Assembly (NCBI RefSeq): GCF_007954405.1
Contig: NZ_CP042344.1
Coordinates: 620,001 to 684,000, forward strand
DNA: 64,000 bases
Direction of reading: 5' to 3'
DNA from: Comamonas flocculans
Lineage (GTDB): Bacteria; Pseudomonadota; Gammaproteobacteria; Burkholderiales; Burkholderiaceae_C
Shown here: piece after piece, positions 31,613 to 45,852 of the stretch
Position numbering within the stretch: the first letter of the stretch is position 1
Layout of the letters: each line of letters begins with the position of its first letter
Notes under the pieces: generated by a model
What the model saw: the letters and a program-made list of their open reading frames with translations, nothing else
What the model was told of the DNA's origin: nothing
Databases searched by the model: none
Translations under genes and position numbers: made by a program

Positions 31613-34243
<2,631 letters not shown>

Positions 34244-34347: not shown

Positions 34348-34421
34348 TGGAGCGGGTGAAGGGAATCGAACCCTCGTATGAAGCTTGGGAAGCTGCCGTT
34401 CTACCATTGAACTACACCCGC
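34348..34421 (-). tRNA. tRNA-Gly (anticodon CCC)
   Basis: 74 nt including encoded CCA. Acceptor GCGGGTG pairs with CACCCGC, the D arm is GTTC-AATGGTA-GAAC, the anticodon loop is TTCCCAA with CCC, and the T arm is GAGGG-TTCGATT-CCCTT. The anticodon stem GCAGC/GCTTC has one C-T mismatch at its second pair, otherwise as in E. coli tRNA-Gly(CCC). It has its own terminator and lies just before alaS. Confidence 0.95.
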
Positions 34422-34513: not shown

Positions 34514-34852
34514 CTAGATCAGGGCCTTGAACGCGTCGTGCACCGCGCTGGCCGCCTGCATGCGACTGGCGATGCTGCCGCAGACCAGTTCGCACAGCTC
34601 GTCCACGCGTTCGTCGGCAATGCGGAAATAGACGCTGGTGCCGCGTTCCTCGCGCGCGACGATGCCGTGCTTGGTCATGAGCGAGAGGTGGCGCGAGACG
34701 TTGGCCGAGGTGTAGCCGCAGGCCTGCGCCAGCTCGCCGACGTTGTATTCACGCTCGCGCAGCAGGTTGAGCAGGCGCAGCCGCGTGGGCTCGGCCAGCA
34801 CCTGAAAGTAGGCGGCCACCTGATCGATGACCTCGGCGGGCATGTGCTTCAT
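34514..34852 (-). CDS. ArsR/SmtB family transcriptional regulator
   Basis: 112 residues from ATG 34852, with GGAG eight nt upstream. Winged helix-turn-helix: YFQVLAEPTRLRLLNLL, then recognition region GELAQACGYTSANVSRHLSLM (about residues 39-59), and wing EERGTSVYFRI. Cysteines are at 45, 87 and 91. There is no classical ELCVCDL metal motif, so a thiol-based (SqrR/BigR/YgaV-like persulfide) sensor is plausible given the SQR-like gene it faces. It is divergent from the RND pump operon and probably represses both promoters. Confidence 0.88.
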   Translation of the reverse strand: MKHMPAEVIDQVAAYFQVLAEPTRLRLLNLLREREYNVGELAQACGYTSANVSRHLSLMTKHGIVAREERGTSVYFRIADERVDELCELVCGSIASRMQAASAVHDAFKALI

Positions 34853-34872
34853 GACGCAATCTCCATGGCTGC

Positions 34873-34913
34873 ATTATACTTTCGTTGACTAATTGAGTGA
34901 ATGCGTAAATAAT
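34873..34913. promoter_or_regulatory. Divergent promoters and ArsR operator candidate
   Basis: Plus strand: TTGACT at 34885-34890, 17-bp spacer, AATAAT at 34908-34913, reading into the pump operon. Minus strand: TATAAT at 34878-34873, reading into the regulator. An imperfect palindrome centred on 34893 (TTGACTAATTGAGTGAA, six of eight arm positions matching) overlaps both promoters, a natural site for ArsR repression of the operon and itself. Confidence 0.6.
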
Positions 34914-34936
34914 CAATTACGAACCGAACTGAAGCC

Positions 34937-35992
34937 ATGGACATGTTTCTCCGCCTCGAGCGTATCGCCCTTCTTGCCGCCGCCCTGGCCCTGGCCCCCG
35001 CCAGCCCTGCCGCCGATGCCGCGGCGCTGGGCTGGACGCCCGTGCAGACCAGCACCGCCGCGCCCCTGCAAAGCAGCGACGCCAGGGTCGAGGCGGTGCG
35101 CGAGGCCGTCCTCGCCGCGCAGGTGGCGGGCAGCATCACCGCGCTGCAGGTGCATGCGGGCGCCTCCGTCAAGGCCGGGCAGGAGCTGCTGCGCATCGAC
35201 GCGCGCATGGCCAGCCAGGGCGCGGCGGCCAGCAGCGCGCAGGTGGTCGCCGCGCAGGCCCAGGCCAGCGTGGCGGCCAGGGACTACGAGCGCCAGCAGC
35301 AGCTTTTTGCCAGGCACTACATCAGCCAGGCCGCGCTGGAGCAGGCGCGCGCCCGGTGGCAGGCCAGCCAGGCGCAGGTGAAGGCGCTGCAGGCGCAGGC
35401 GGCGGTGGCGGGCACGCAAACCGGCCTGCACGTGCTGCGCGCGCCGTTCGACGGCGTGGTGGCCAGCGTGCCGGTGACGCTGGGCGACATGGCGCTGCCG
35501 GGCAAGCCGCTGCTCACGCTGGTCGACCCCGGTGCCTTGCGCATCACCGCAGCGCTCAGCCAGGCGCAGACCGCCCGGCTGCGCGGCGCCCCGCAGGTGA
35601 TGGTGGAGCTGCCCGGTGCGGGCACACCACCCACCACCATCGCCATGGCGCAGGTGCAAGTCCTGCCCACGGCCGACGCCCAAAGCCACACGAGCACGGT
35701 GCGCGTGCTGCTGCCCGCCGGTCTGGCTGGCGCGGTTCCGGGTGCGTTCGCACGGCTGTGGTTCGAGGGCGCGGGCGCGGCGGGCAACCCGACGCGCCTT
35801 TTCGTGCCTGCCGCCAGCGTGGTGCGCCGCGCCGAGATGAGCGGCGTCTACGTGCGCGCTGGCGACGGCAAGCCACGGCTGCGCCAGGTGCGGCTGGGCC
35901 CGGCGGCGGGCGAGCAGATCGAAGTCCTCAGCGGCCTGAGCGCCGGTGAGCAGGTGGCCACCGACCCCCAGGCGGCGGCTCGGGAGCGCTGA
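34937..35992 (+). CDS. RND efflux periplasmic adaptor (membrane fusion protein)
   Basis: 351 residues. Signal peptide ends near SPAADA. The lipoyl/barrel-sandwich halves are VAGSITALQVHAGASVKAGQELLRID and LRAPFDGVVASVPVTLGD, flanking an Ala/Gln-rich alpha-hairpin (about residues 95-160). Beta-barrel and membrane-proximal domains follow. It links the inner-membrane pump to the TolC-type channel. It lacks a lipobox, unlike AcrA. The RND gene starts 1 bp after its stop, so it heads the operon. Confidence 0.9.
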   Translation: MDMFLRLERIALLAAALALAPASPAADAAALGWTPVQTSTAAPLQSSDARVEAVREAVLAAQVAGSITALQVHAGASVKAGQELLRIDARMASQGAAASSAQVVAAQAQASVAARDYERQQQLFARHYISQAALEQARARWQASQAQVKALQAQAAVAGTQTGLHVLRAPFDGVVASVPVTLGDMALPGKPLLTLVDPGALRITAALSQAQTARLRGAPQVMVELPGAGTPPTTIAMAQVQVLPTADAQSHTSTVRVLLPAGLAGAVPGAFARLWFEGAGAAGNPTRLFVPAASVVRRAEMSGVYVRAGDGKPRLRQVRLGPAAGEQIEVLSGLSAGEQVATDPQAAARER

Positions 35993-35993
35993 G

Positions 35994-42008
<6,015 letters not shown>

Positions 42009-42105
42009 ACGCCCCGGGGCACGCCTCGGAATCGACGCGCCTGAAAGGGTCAGGCTGCCAGGTTCATGATGCGCCATGCCCTCGCGGGCAAGGAGGCCGA
42101 GCACT

Positions 42106-43242
42106 ATGAGCAGTCCCGGAATCACCGTCCTCGGCAGCGGCTTCGGCGCGCTGAGCACCGTGCGCGAGCTGCGGGCGCGCCTGTGCACCGCCCCCATCAC
42201 CCTCATATCGCCGCGTGCCGAACTGCACTACCTGCCCGGCAGCATCTGGATACCGAGCGGCCGGCGCCGACGCGAAGACCTGGTCGTGCCGCTTGCGCCC
42301 TTCTTCGAGCGCATGAAGGTGCGCCACGTTCAGGCCGAGGTGACGGGGCTGGAGGACGCCGGCCGCACGGTGCTGATCCGCGGCGCAGAAAGAATTGCCA
42401 ACGACGCCCTGGTGATCGCCACCGGCGGGCGCTTCATCAGGAAGCTGCCCGGCATCGAACACGCCATCACGCCCTGCGAAGGCATTTCCGCGGCCGAAGA
42501 GATACGCGAGCGGCTCGGGGCCATGGCGGGCGGCGCGATCGCCATCGGCTTCTCGGGCAACCCCAAGGAGCCTGCGGCGGTACGCGGCGGGCCGATGTTC
42601 GAATTTCTCTTCGCGATCGACACGCAGCTGCGCCGCGAGGGCCGGCGCGGGCAATTCACGCTCACCTTCTTTCACCCCAAGGCCGAGCCGGGCAAGCGCC
42701 TGGGCGAGCAGGCCGTACAGGGCATTCTTGCCGAGATGCGGCGCCGGGGCATCCAGACCCACCTGGGCCACAAGCCGCTGCGCTTCGAGGAGGACAAGGT
42801 GGTGACCGAAGGCGGTGAAATCCCCGCCGACCTCATCCTCTTCATGAGCGGCATGACGGGCAACGCCTGGCTGGACGCGACCGCCCTGCCGCGCTCGCCC
42901 GGCGGCCTGGTCGCGGCCGATGCCCAATGCCGCGTGCGCGGCTGGCCCAGGACTTACGTCGTGGGCGATGCCGGCAGCTTTCCCGGCCCCGACTGGGCGC
43001 CCAAGCAGGCGCACATGGCCGACCTGCAGGCGAGGGCAGCCGCGCAAAACCTGATCGACGCGCTGGCCGGCCGCCCCGAAACCGCGGGCTTCAAGACCGA
43101 GCTGCTGTGCATCATCGACACGCTCGAGCAAGGCAAGCTCGTCTGGCGCACCGATGCGCGCACCATCGCGCTGCCCTGGCTGCGTCCGCTGCACTGGGCC
43201 AAGGCGCATTTCGAGCGGCGCTACCTCAAGCGCTATCGCTGA
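42106..43242 (+). CDS. Second FAD/NAD(P)-binding oxidoreductase, SQR-related
   Basis: 378 residues from ATG 42106, with AAGGAGG nine nt upstream; 97 bp after the SQR-like gene. FAD motif GITVLGSGFGALSTVREL, and the C-terminal FAD contact TYVVGDAGSFPGPDWAPKQAHMAD. It is built like SQR or flavocytochrome-c sulfide dehydrogenase, but where SQR has its active cysteine this protein reads GFSGNPKEPAAVRGGPMFEF, without Cys. It may therefore pass electrons or use another substrate rather than oxidise sulfide. C-terminal RPLHWAKAHFERRYLKRYR is basic and amphipathic, suggesting membrane contact. Confidence 0.85.
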   Translation: MSSPGITVLGSGFGALSTVRELRARLCTAPITLISPRAELHYLPGSIWIPSGRRRREDLVVPLAPFFERMKVRHVQAEVTGLEDAGRTVLIRGAERIANDALVIATGGRFIRKLPGIEHAITPCEGISAAEEIRERLGAMAGGAIAIGFSGNPKEPAAVRGGPMFEFLFAIDTQLRREGRRGQFTLTFFHPKAEPGKRLGEQAVQGILAEMRRRGIQTHLGHKPLRFEEDKVVTEGGEIPADLILFMSGMTGNAWLDATALPRSPGGLVAADAQCRVRGWPRTYVVGDAGSFPGPDWAPKQAHMADLQARAAAQNLIDALAGRPETAGFKTELLCIIDTLEQGKLVWRTDARTIALPWLRPLHWAKAHFERRYLKRYR

Positions 43243-43302
43243 GCGGCCCGCTCAAGACCACATTCCCGTTGTCCATTGCGTTTTTTGTTGAAGGAGCACA
43301 CC

Positions 43303-43512
43303 ATGACCACTTGGAGAGTCACCCGCGCCGTTGCCGGATTTTTCATTCTGCTTACGCTCGCCCTGGGCATCCCGGGCAGCCCCGTCTTCGTGAGCCAGTG
43401 GTGGCTCGCGTTCACCGCATTTGTTGGCCTGAACCTGCTGCAGAGCGCCTTCACGCAGTGGTGCCTGATGGCCAACATGCTCAAGAAGCTGGGCATCCAG
43501 CCCGGCTGCTGA
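43303..43512 (+). CDS. DUF2892-family small membrane protein
   Basis: 69 residues with AAGGAG upstream. Two hydrophobic helices (VAGFFILLTLALG and WWLAFTAFVGLNLLQSAF), the two-helix DUF2892 domain that in E. coli YgaP follows a rhodanese. TQWCLMANMLKKLG carries one Cys on the cytoplasmic side. In YgaP the fold is a membrane sulfurtransferase module, so a role holding or passing sulfur is plausible but unproven. A second member follows after 16 bp. Confidence 0.82.
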   Translation: MTTWRVTRAVAGFFILLTLALGIPGSPVFVSQWWLAFTAFVGLNLLQSAFTQWCLMANMLKKLGIQPGC

Positions 43513-43528
43513 ACCGAAAGGAAGAACC

Positions 43529-43726
43529 ATGTTGAACAATGTCGGCGGCATCGACCGCGTCCTGCGCATCCTCGTGGGCATCGTGCTGATCGCCCTGGCC
43601 GCCACCGGCGTCGTGGGCTGGTGGGGCTATCTTGGCGTACTGCCGCTGGCCACCGGCCTGTTTCGCTTCTGCCCGGCCTATGGTCTGCTGGGCATACGCA
43701 CCTGTCCGATGAAAAAGCCCGAGTGA
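43529..43726 (+). CDS. Second DUF2892-family small membrane protein
   Basis: 65 residues with an AGGAAGAA ribosome site. Begins MLNNVGGIDRVLRILVG, the DUF2892 entry helix, then GYLGVLPLATGLFRFCPAY and LLGIRTCPMKK with two cysteines near the membrane face. It is a tandem relative of the preceding gene with a different N-terminus, and the last gene of the operon. Confidence 0.85.
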   Translation: MLNNVGGIDRVLRILVGIVLIALAATGVVGWWGYLGVLPLATGLFRFCPAYGLLGIRTCPMKKPE

Positions 43727-44739: not shown

Positions 44740-45852
44740 ATGGGCAAGCAACTGGTAGGTCTCGTCGGCTGGCGCGGCATGGTCGGCTCGGTGCTGATGC
44801 AGCGCATGCAGGCCGAAGGCGATTTCGAGCTGATCGAGCCGGTCTTCTTCTCCACTTCCAACGCCGGCGGCAAGGCGCCCGCCATGGCGCGCACGCACAC
44901 CACGCTGCAGGACGCGGGCGACGTCGCCGCGCTCGGCCGCTGCGACATCGTCATTTCCTGCCAGGGCGGCGACTACACCAAGGAAGTCTTCCCCAAGCTG
45001 CGCGCCGCCGGCTGGCAAGGACACTGGATCGATGCCGCCAGCGCGCTGCGCATGGAGTCCGACGCAGTCATCGTGCTCGACCCGGTGAACGAAGAGCTGA
45101 TCCGCCAGCGCCTGGCCGCGGGCGGCAGGAACTGGATAGGCGGCAACTGCACCAATTCCATCCTGCTCATGGGCATGGTCGGGCTGTTCAAGGCAGGTCT
45201 GGTCGAATGGGTCAGCTCCATGACCTACCAGGCGGCGTCGGGCGGCGGCGCCAACCACATGCGCGAGCTGCTCAAGGGCATGAGCGTGATCCACGCCGCG
45301 GTGGAAGACGACCTGGCCACGCCGGCCTCGGCCATCCTGGAGATCGACCGCAAGGTTGCGCAGACCATACGGGAAGACGTGCCGCGCGAGTTCTTCGGCT
45401 CGCCCCTGGCCGGCGGTCTGATTCCCTGGATCGACTCGCAACTGGACAACGGCCAGTCCAAGGAAGAATGGAAGGGCCAGGCAGAGGTCAACAAGATTCT
45501 GGGCACTGCCACGCCGATTCCGGTGGACGGCCTGTGCGTGCGCATCGGCGCAATGCGCTGCCATTCGCTGGCGCTCACGCTCAAGCTCAGGAAGGACCTG
45601 CCGTTGGCGGAAATCGAATCGCTGATCCAGGGCGGCAACCCCTGGGTGCGCTTCGTGCCCAACGAACGCGAGCGCAGCGTCCATGAACTCACGCCCGCTG
45701 CAGTCACGGGCGGCCTGGACATCGCGGTCGGGCGCGTGCGCAAGCTCAACCTCGGACCCGAGTACGTCTCGGCCTTCGTGGTCGGCGACCAGCTGCTCTG
45801 GGGCGCGGCCGAGCCGCTGCGGCGCATGCTGCGCATCCTGCTGGCCGCCTGA
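44740..45852 (+). CDS. asd: Aspartate-semialdehyde dehydrogenase
   Basis: 370 residues. NADP motif [18 protein letters not shown], active-site Cys in [12 protein letters not shown] near residue 135 and the acid/base His in [18 protein letters not shown] near residue 274. It makes aspartate 4-semialdehyde, the branch point for lysine/diaminopimelate, threonine, methionine and isoleucine. A GAAAGGGCAGAG ribosome site precedes the ATG. The upstream leader suggests attenuation by end products. It is followed by fimV, as in many gamma- and betaproteobacteria. Confidence 0.97.

Follow-up and report, generated by a model that had tools for sequence, protein, structure and literature searches.

In this work we describe an operon-like locus of Comamonas flocculans in which the genes of a tripartite efflux pump stand together with those of sulfide-related flavoproteins. 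The locus lies in a stretch of 64,000 nucleotides, positions 620,001 to 684,000 of contig NZ_CP042344.1 (RefSeq assembly GCF_007954405.1, a genome of 3.33 Mb in one contig), which is referred to here as the window and whose own numbering is used throughout. A divergent gene on the minus strand (34514-34852) encodes a regulator of the ArsR family, and seven co-directional genes occupy the plus strand across 34937-43726. They encode the periplasmic adaptor, the permease of the resistance-nodulation-division (RND) superfamily and the TolC-family outer membrane factor (OMF) of the pump, a sulfide:quinone oxidoreductase (SQR1), a second SQR-like flavoprotein (FP2), and two small DUF2892 membrane proteins (DUFa and DUFb), as follows:

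34514-34852, minus strand: ArsR-family regulator, 112 residues, with Cys45, Cys87, Cys91 and Asn29 (HTH_5 45.7 bits; NF033788 82.9 bits)
34885-34916, plus strand: candidate operator, a 32-bp imperfect dyad overlapping a sigma-70-like promoter, proposed from its conservation in the genus
34937-35992, plus strand: RND periplasmic adaptor (membrane fusion protein), 351 residues (TIGR01730 179 bits, cut-off 94.9)
35994-39236, plus strand: RND permease, 1080 residues, no cysteine, Asp-Asp in transmembrane helix 4 (TM4) and Arg in TM10 (PF00873 480.9 bits)
39233-40672, plus strand: OMF, TolC-family outer membrane channel, 479 residues (PF02321 142.9 bits; TIGR01844 186.5 bits, below its cut-off of 225)
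40722-42008, plus strand: SQR1, predicted sulfide:quinone oxidoreductase of Acidithiobacillus ferrooxidans type, 428 residues (PDB 3sz0, E 6.2e-186)
42106-43242, plus strand: FP2, second SQR-like flavoprotein, 378 residues (PF07992 63 bits; PDB SQR chains, E 2e-20)
43303-43512, plus strand: DUFa, YgaP-like/DUF2892 membrane protein, 69 residues (PF11127 36 bits)
43529-43726, plus strand: DUFb, YgaP-like/DUF2892 membrane protein, 65 residues (PF11127 80 bits)

These coordinates and profile matches bear out the gene order given in an earlier sequence-only reading of this DNA. That reading had also called the pump and flavoproteins fused, which is incorrect, as the eight genes are adjacent but separate reading frames, and it had placed overlaps of 1-4 bp within the pump, where the permease and OMF genes do overlap by 4 bp and the adaptor and permease genes are separated by a 1-bp gap. 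From adaptor to DUFb the intergenic distances are 1, -4, 49, 97, 60 and 16 bp, a spacing compatible with transcription as one operon. Terminator-like sites numbered 10 over both strands of the scanned region, against 5.2 expected, and every one on the plus strand within 34937-43726 is a consensus match located inside coding sequence.

Key to this locus is the permease, which by its sequence represents a distinct branch of the RND superfamily. Membership of the superfamily is clear (PF00873, 480.9 bits against a cut-off of 28), while the models for the hydrophobe/amphiphile efflux (HAE) multidrug pumps are missed (NF033617, 442 bits against 1250; TIGR00915, 258 against 940), as is the heavy-metal efflux model covering CusA and CzcA (TIGR00914, 248 against 701). 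Compared with 20 further RND loci from related genomes, the permease shows 22-30% identity. The branch has the family, the adaptor and TolC partners and the TM4 Asp-Asp pair in common with HAE-type pumps such as MdtB, OqxB and AcrB, and differs from them in carrying Arg in TM10 and usually lacking cysteine. Over 80 aligned rows, in which the window protein occurs twice, the Asp-Asp pair is invariant, TM11 Thr is present in 77 (the other three being gaps), and the TM10 Lys of the proton relay is replaced by Arg (residue 982 of the window permease) in all 80; in 30 control pumps, which come from relatives of the window genome and belong mostly to other HAE branches, this residue is Lys without exception. 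The full HAE relay of TM4 Asp-Asp, TM10 Lys and TM11 Thr, positions which we take to correspond to D407/D408, K940 and T978 of AcrB, is therefore incomplete in this permease owing to the Lys-to-Arg change. The replacement extends beyond the first set of proteins, being found in all 19 of 20 loci from a phylum-wide sample that could be read by pattern, in 118 of 120 listed relatives of the permease at locus L038 (two were unread) and in Paracoccus, and poses a specific puzzle for those who study RND mechanism. Absence of cysteine is similarly characteristic, with 71 of 79 rows and 109 of the 120 listed relatives being cysteine-free, compared with 1 of the 30 controls; a thiol-free pump would suit a reactive sulfur cargo. 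A segment at approximately residues 879-895, ending in FFAPPEDPW, also sets the window permease apart, as most of the 30 control pumps lack it.

The neighbourhood of this pump is conserved within the genus. In 7 of 8 other genomes of the genus that were examined, the genes for ArsR, adaptor, RND permease, OMF, FP2, DUFa and DUFb follow in the same order, and SQR1 stands between the OMF and FP2 in four of these seven loci; the eighth genome (G253) yielded no match to SQR1 or FP2. A distant SQR-like frame is located between FP2 and DUFa (9950-10945 of L195, genome G252) in one of the genus loci that lack SQR1. The exact eight-gene composition was found only in the genus of the window, with relatives of FP2 and ArsR from Alicycliphilus and Simplicispira remaining unplaced. 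Across a sample of 250 genomes of the order, the permease (at least 57% identity) was detected in 84, an SQR match (E 1e-100) in 78, and both in 55, a co-occurrence with a Fisher p of 2e-16 that is not corrected for kinship. The two genes lie within 10 kb of each other in 23 of the 250 genomes, that of C. flocculans included, and 22 of 24 such pairs are encoded on one strand.

Beyond the order, a scan of named genomes recovered at least 80 loci with a permease at 57-83% identity, mostly from Betaproteobacteria with some from Gammaproteobacteria, and including Thiobacillus, Sulfurimicrobium, Halothiobacillaceae and Thiohalophilus. Among the matches listed for these loci, the adaptor gene precedes that of the permease and a DUFa homologue usually follows it. 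For the 58 of 80 loci having at least 3 kb on both sides, genes sought within 6 kb comprised those for DUFa-type proteins (49 loci), SQR (20), rhodanese (15), thioredoxin (12), persulfide dioxygenase (PDO)-like proteins (10), OsmC (8) and CsoR (5); as the queries for rhodanese, thioredoxin, PDO-like proteins, OsmC and CsoR were drawn from the same 80 loci, the resulting figure of 52/58 is not independent. A tree of permeases (fasttree only, with two long branches) was constructed from 112 loci, reduced to 86 by discarding those with less than 3 kb on either side or with a short or weak RND frame, and L079, which shares a contig with L198, was omitted. Of these 86 loci, 70 have DUFa-type genes alongside and 32 have SQR, arranged in several different orders, and the tree requires no fewer than 22 switches between presence and absence of SQR. 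Adaptor, permease and DUFa make up a stable core, next to which SQR is present at some loci and missing at others.

Relatives of the permease, including some of approximately 40% identity, were present in 159 of 398 genomes of the phylum (E 1e-180). From the matches listed we chose by hand 20 loci representing 17 families, two of them from the family of the window and none shared with the 80-locus set, and searched their surroundings for DUF2892, SQR, rhodanese, YeeE/DUF6691, OsmC and CsoR with the queries of that set plus proteins from Paracoccus. Such sulfur-handling neighbours occurred at 13 of the 20 loci (DUF2892 at 12, SQR at 5, rhodanese at 5), whereas the 20 control RND loci, taken from nine related genomes, included just one with such a neighbour, a rhodanese. 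ArsR/BigR matches were found at 9 loci, all of them within the 13. Conservation limited to this one genome, which the sequence-only reading had named as the outcome that would tell against it, is thus not what is observed, with the neighbourhood recurring in 7 of 8 genus genomes, in 23 of 250 genomes of the order and at loci across the phylum.

Individual distant loci illustrate the range of these associations. On plasmid 1 of Paracoccus denitrificans a permease relative of 43% identity is accompanied by an adaptor, a BigR-type ArsR regulator with the BigR-type cysteine pair, YeeE, DUF6691, a sulfurtransferase, two DUF2892 proteins, a flavoprotein and a PDO-like enzyme of the metallo-beta-lactamase (MBL) fold that is 55% identical to the PDO-like query. 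Aeromonas caviae carries SQR (60%), a DUFa-like stretch, adaptor and permease (57%) together, and a Vibrio plasmid carries only DUF2892, adaptor and permease. Plasmid records with a permease relative below 60% identity numbered 31, of which three were examined closely. One record listed as a plasmid of A. caviae, NZ_AP026896.1 (L210), is 4.9 Mb in length and is probably a mislabelled chromosome.

A related four-gene arrangement has been described previously. The excerpts of PMC5358917 (Mehta-Kolte et al. 2017) report an operon of Azospira suillum PS, Dsui_3440-3443, encoding a protein of unknown function, an RND pump, an SQR and an adaptor, which was highly expressed with sulfide and was flagged by Bar-seq (transposon fitness profiling), along with a separate DUF2892 gene that was upregulated approximately 10-fold. 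In those excerpts no ArsR, OMF, FP2 or second DUF2892 protein is described for the operon, and by locus number the SQR gene lies between those of the adaptor and the permease; a comparable order of adaptor, SQR, permease and DUFa is present in our loci L035, L038 and L042. No Azospira name appeared among 120 listed proteins, for which names were given in part only. The earlier remark that no described system of this exact composition was known consequently needs qualifying, in that a four-gene form is in print, according to the excerpts of PMC5358917, and the exact eight-gene set was found only in the genus of the window. The sulfide/persulfide theme proposed in the sequence-only reading is well supported, both by the conserved neighbourhoods and by the sulfide-induced Azospira operon as excerpted. 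Pumps of A. vinosum and P. putida, encountered in the available portions of other papers, were considered and set aside, as those portions do not show them to belong to this RND branch, and in the open-licence literature searched we did not find the branch proposed as a sulfur exporter. The theme is partly in print, and the novelty lies in the pump branch, its altered relay and its likely sulfur cargo.

Turning to the enzymes of the operon, SQR1 is homologous along its whole length to the SQR of A. ferrooxidans whose crystal structure is known (PDB 3sz0, E 6e-186 over 425 residues). Its Cys128, Cys160 and Cys356, which we take to be the catalytic cysteines, are retained in 24, 23 and 24 of 24 rows across loci, respectively. 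Because of this close homology and the conservation of the active-site cysteines, a role for SQR1 in quinone-linked sulfide oxidation is supported. With all three active-site cysteines in place, as in the A. ferrooxidans enzyme (PDB 3sz0 and others), SQR1 appears to be an ordinary SQR whose novelty is the company its gene keeps.

FP2 is a more distant relative of SQR (E 2e-20 to PDB SQR chains), with a C-terminal tail that aligns to the SQR tail. The sequence-only reading had labelled it cysteine-less, which proved wrong: Cys125, Cys276 and Cys336 (numbering of a 379-residue query) are invariant in 121 of 121 rows, being the window protein and 120 listed proteins of which one is the window protein again, and in 14 of 14 rows comprising the protein itself and 13 from the order sample. 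Cys336 aligns with the third SQR cysteine (356) and Cys125 lies near the loop of Cys128, and the position of SQR Cys160 is not occupied by cysteine. Since the FAD-side pair 160/356 is thereby incomplete, we refer to FP2 as SQR-like and not as an SQR. Matches to FP2 occur in 16 of the 250 genomes of the order, its own included, and in the 12 that were fetched of the 15 others the contexts were scattered, sometimes near a rhodanese-like gene or SQR. We do not count FP2 as a standing component of the pump cluster, since it was seen together with this permease in the genus of the window only. In L255, L259 and L262 it lies near a globin-like gene, and in two of these also near a DUF302-like gene (both named by eye), neighbours in other genera which suggest a redox role outside the pump operon.

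Both small membrane proteins pass the PF11127 cut-off of 25.3 bits, DUFb at 80 bits and DUFa, in a genome profile search, at 36 bits (38 and 41 bits for two orthologues), which upholds the earlier claim of two tandem DUF2892 proteins; Cys54 of DUFa is invariant in 62 of 62 rows. A third PF11127 match in the host genome, at G000:C1:186738-186929, falls in an open frame of 238 residues and is possibly a YgaP-type fusion with another domain.

In the regulator, Cys87 and Cys91 are invariant over 121 rows, and Cys45 is shared by 119 of them. Position 29, which corresponds to Cys30 of BigR (chain 3pqj), is Asn in 117 of the 121 rows and Cys in none, while Cys91 coincides with the second BigR cysteine or falls up to four residues away from it, according to the alignment used. 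The BigR model NF040642 is also missed (43.4 bits against a cut-off of 155). As position 29 is never Cys, the regulator falls outside the BigR/SqrR/YgaV group by its cysteines, and an assignment as BigR- or YgaV-like was rejected at the first cysteine position; the parallel to Escherichia coli YgaV drawn in the sequence-only reading does not extend to the cysteine pair. The known sulfane-sulfur sensors have two conserved cysteines in common, according to the excerpts of PMC12423496, which add that ArsR regulators of this kind may have RND pumps among their targets. The BigR, SqrR and YgaV regulons of those excerpts likewise place an ArsR-type regulator beside sqr, PDO, rhodanese or transport genes, and the window regulator differs in having Asn at the first conserved cysteine position. 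Regulators that do carry the pair are encoded near the pump at other loci (L017, L034, L035, L061 and L062).

Between the divergent genes lies a sigma-70-like promoter, TTGACT-17-AATAAT, at 34885-34913 (three promoter-like sites were found against 0.5 expected). The 32-bp dyad covering it is conserved in position in all 8 genus sequences. Among 20 loci farther afield, 15 contain a site that fits the genus consensus better than any of 200 local dinucleotide shuffles, a count also obtained with 100 mononucleotide shuffles of sequence that was partly coding and partly intergenic. At p 0.05 a match is present in 19 of the 20, that of L027 being GC-rich and doubtful, and only L024 fails. The symmetry of the window site taken alone is not significant against shuffles (p 0.29), such that the evidence for this candidate operator is its conservation, not its symmetry.

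To our knowledge, the route by which oxidised sulfur exits after the action of SQR is an open question. We tentatively favour, without holding it to be established, a model in which the locus is a sulfide-stress operon and sulfane sulfur is the most likely cargo of its pump. SQR1 would oxidise sulfide at the membrane and pass the electrons to quinone, and the oxidised sulfur, as polysulfide, persulfide or zero-valent sulfur, would leave the envelope through the dedicated adaptor-RND-TolC pump. DUFa and DUFb may relay sulfane sulfur at the membrane or buffer it, FP2 could act as a second SQR-type flavoprotein on a related sulfur substrate, and ArsR would repress the operon through the conserved dyad over the promoter until Cys87, Cys91 and Cys45 react with a thiophilic signal. 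Sulfane sulfur export, hand-over by DUFa and DUFb and repression through the dyad are steps that we infer. The function predicted in the sequence-only reading, export or handling of reactive sulfur or redox compounds with electron delivery to quinone, accordingly gains support by homology for the quinone step of SQR1, with sulfur export continuing to be inferential. A bolder extension, which we regard as rather doubtful, is that the Arg-relay, mostly cysteine-free branch as a whole serves specifically for the tripartite export of sulfane or zero-valent sulfur, carrying the SQR product from the periplasmic membrane face to the outside, and would supply the transporter still missing for the deposition of extracellular sulfur by sulfide-oxidising Proteobacteria, together with a new ArsR-type sulfur sensor. 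A widespread pump branch tied to sulfide enzymes makes the question of sulfur exit directly testable by single gene deletions.

Several observations weigh against sulfur export. SQR1 is absent from 3 of the 7 same-genus loci, 29 of the 84 order genomes with the permease lack this type of SQR, 23 of the 78 with SQR lack such a permease, and 7 of the 20 phylum loci have none of the neighbours sought. The regulator does not carry the known persulfide-sensing cysteine pair. The cysteine-free state holds for only 12 of 20 permeases in the distant phylum sample, and may be a single old loss that was inherited. In the excerpts of PMC5358917, deletion of the SQR gene or of the whole Azospira operon left the sulfide oxidation rate unchanged, and its authors suggested metal-sulfide efflux; the likeness of that operon to ours is moreover one of description and gene order, not of sequence. 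The unchanged rate is compatible with a pump that works downstream of oxidation or alongside it, whatever the pump carries.

That deletion result would also be accounted for by the strongest rival explanation, in which a broad HAE-type exporter has been drafted into the sulfide response and expels organic compounds damaged or made by sulfide or polysulfide (organic polysulfides, electrophiles, quinones), not sulfur. In its favour, the permease scores highest against an HAE multidrug model (NF033617, 442 bits), above the metal-pump model, and has the TM4 Asp-Asp pair, and induction of a multidrug regulator of E. coli by sulfane sulfur is reported in the excerpts of PMC8614764. Nevertheless, the permease falls far short of the curated cut-off of every multidrug RND model listed, and the TM10 Arg-for-Lys change and the repeated tie to SQR and DUF2892 favour a specialised role over that of a broad exporter, so that we consider this explanation somewhat unlikely.

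The suggestion of the Azospira authors in the excerpts of PMC5358917 corresponds to another alternative, the export of metals, metalloids or metal sulfides, with the three-cysteine ArsR sensing a thiophilic metal and SQR removing the sulfide that would precipitate it. The kinship of the regulator to ArsR/SmtB proteins (82.9 bits), its Cys45, Cys87 and Cys91, which could bind a soft metal, and the CsoR-type regulators near 5 of 58 loci are consistent with this. Metal RND pumps have one Asp in TM4, unlike the Asp-Asp pair of this permease, and together with the TIGR00914 score far below its cut-off this led us to reject classing the permease itself as a metal pump; nor was any metal chaperone or P-type ATPase recognised by eye among 31 recurrent neighbour families, five of which were checked against Pfam. 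Although it is a published suggestion, the metal explanation is the weaker of the two on sequence, and we judge it unlikely. A neighbourhood formed by chance or hitchhiking, without joint function, could draw on the three SQR-less genus loci and the frequent changes of SQR state on the permease tree, but is highly improbable given that the association recurs in several gene orders and classes, with control loci at 1/20.

Elsewhere in the host genome, SoxB is encoded at G000:C1:359457-361148 (866 bits, exceeding the cut-off), and G000:C1:3254074-3254910 encodes a PDO-like MBL protein with 57% identity to one at locus L017; with both present, the host probably oxidises reduced sulfur. A mobile element was considered for the operon and discounted, as regional GC is unremarkable and there is no sign of recent transfer at this locus. 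On one side the operon is bordered by alaS (31613-34243, minus strand) and a tRNA gene (34351-34421, minus strand), and on the other by the gene for aspartate-semialdehyde dehydrogenase (asd; 44740-45852, plus strand), the two protein-coding genes being named by eye. Homologues of alaS and asd border the operon in locus L199 as well.

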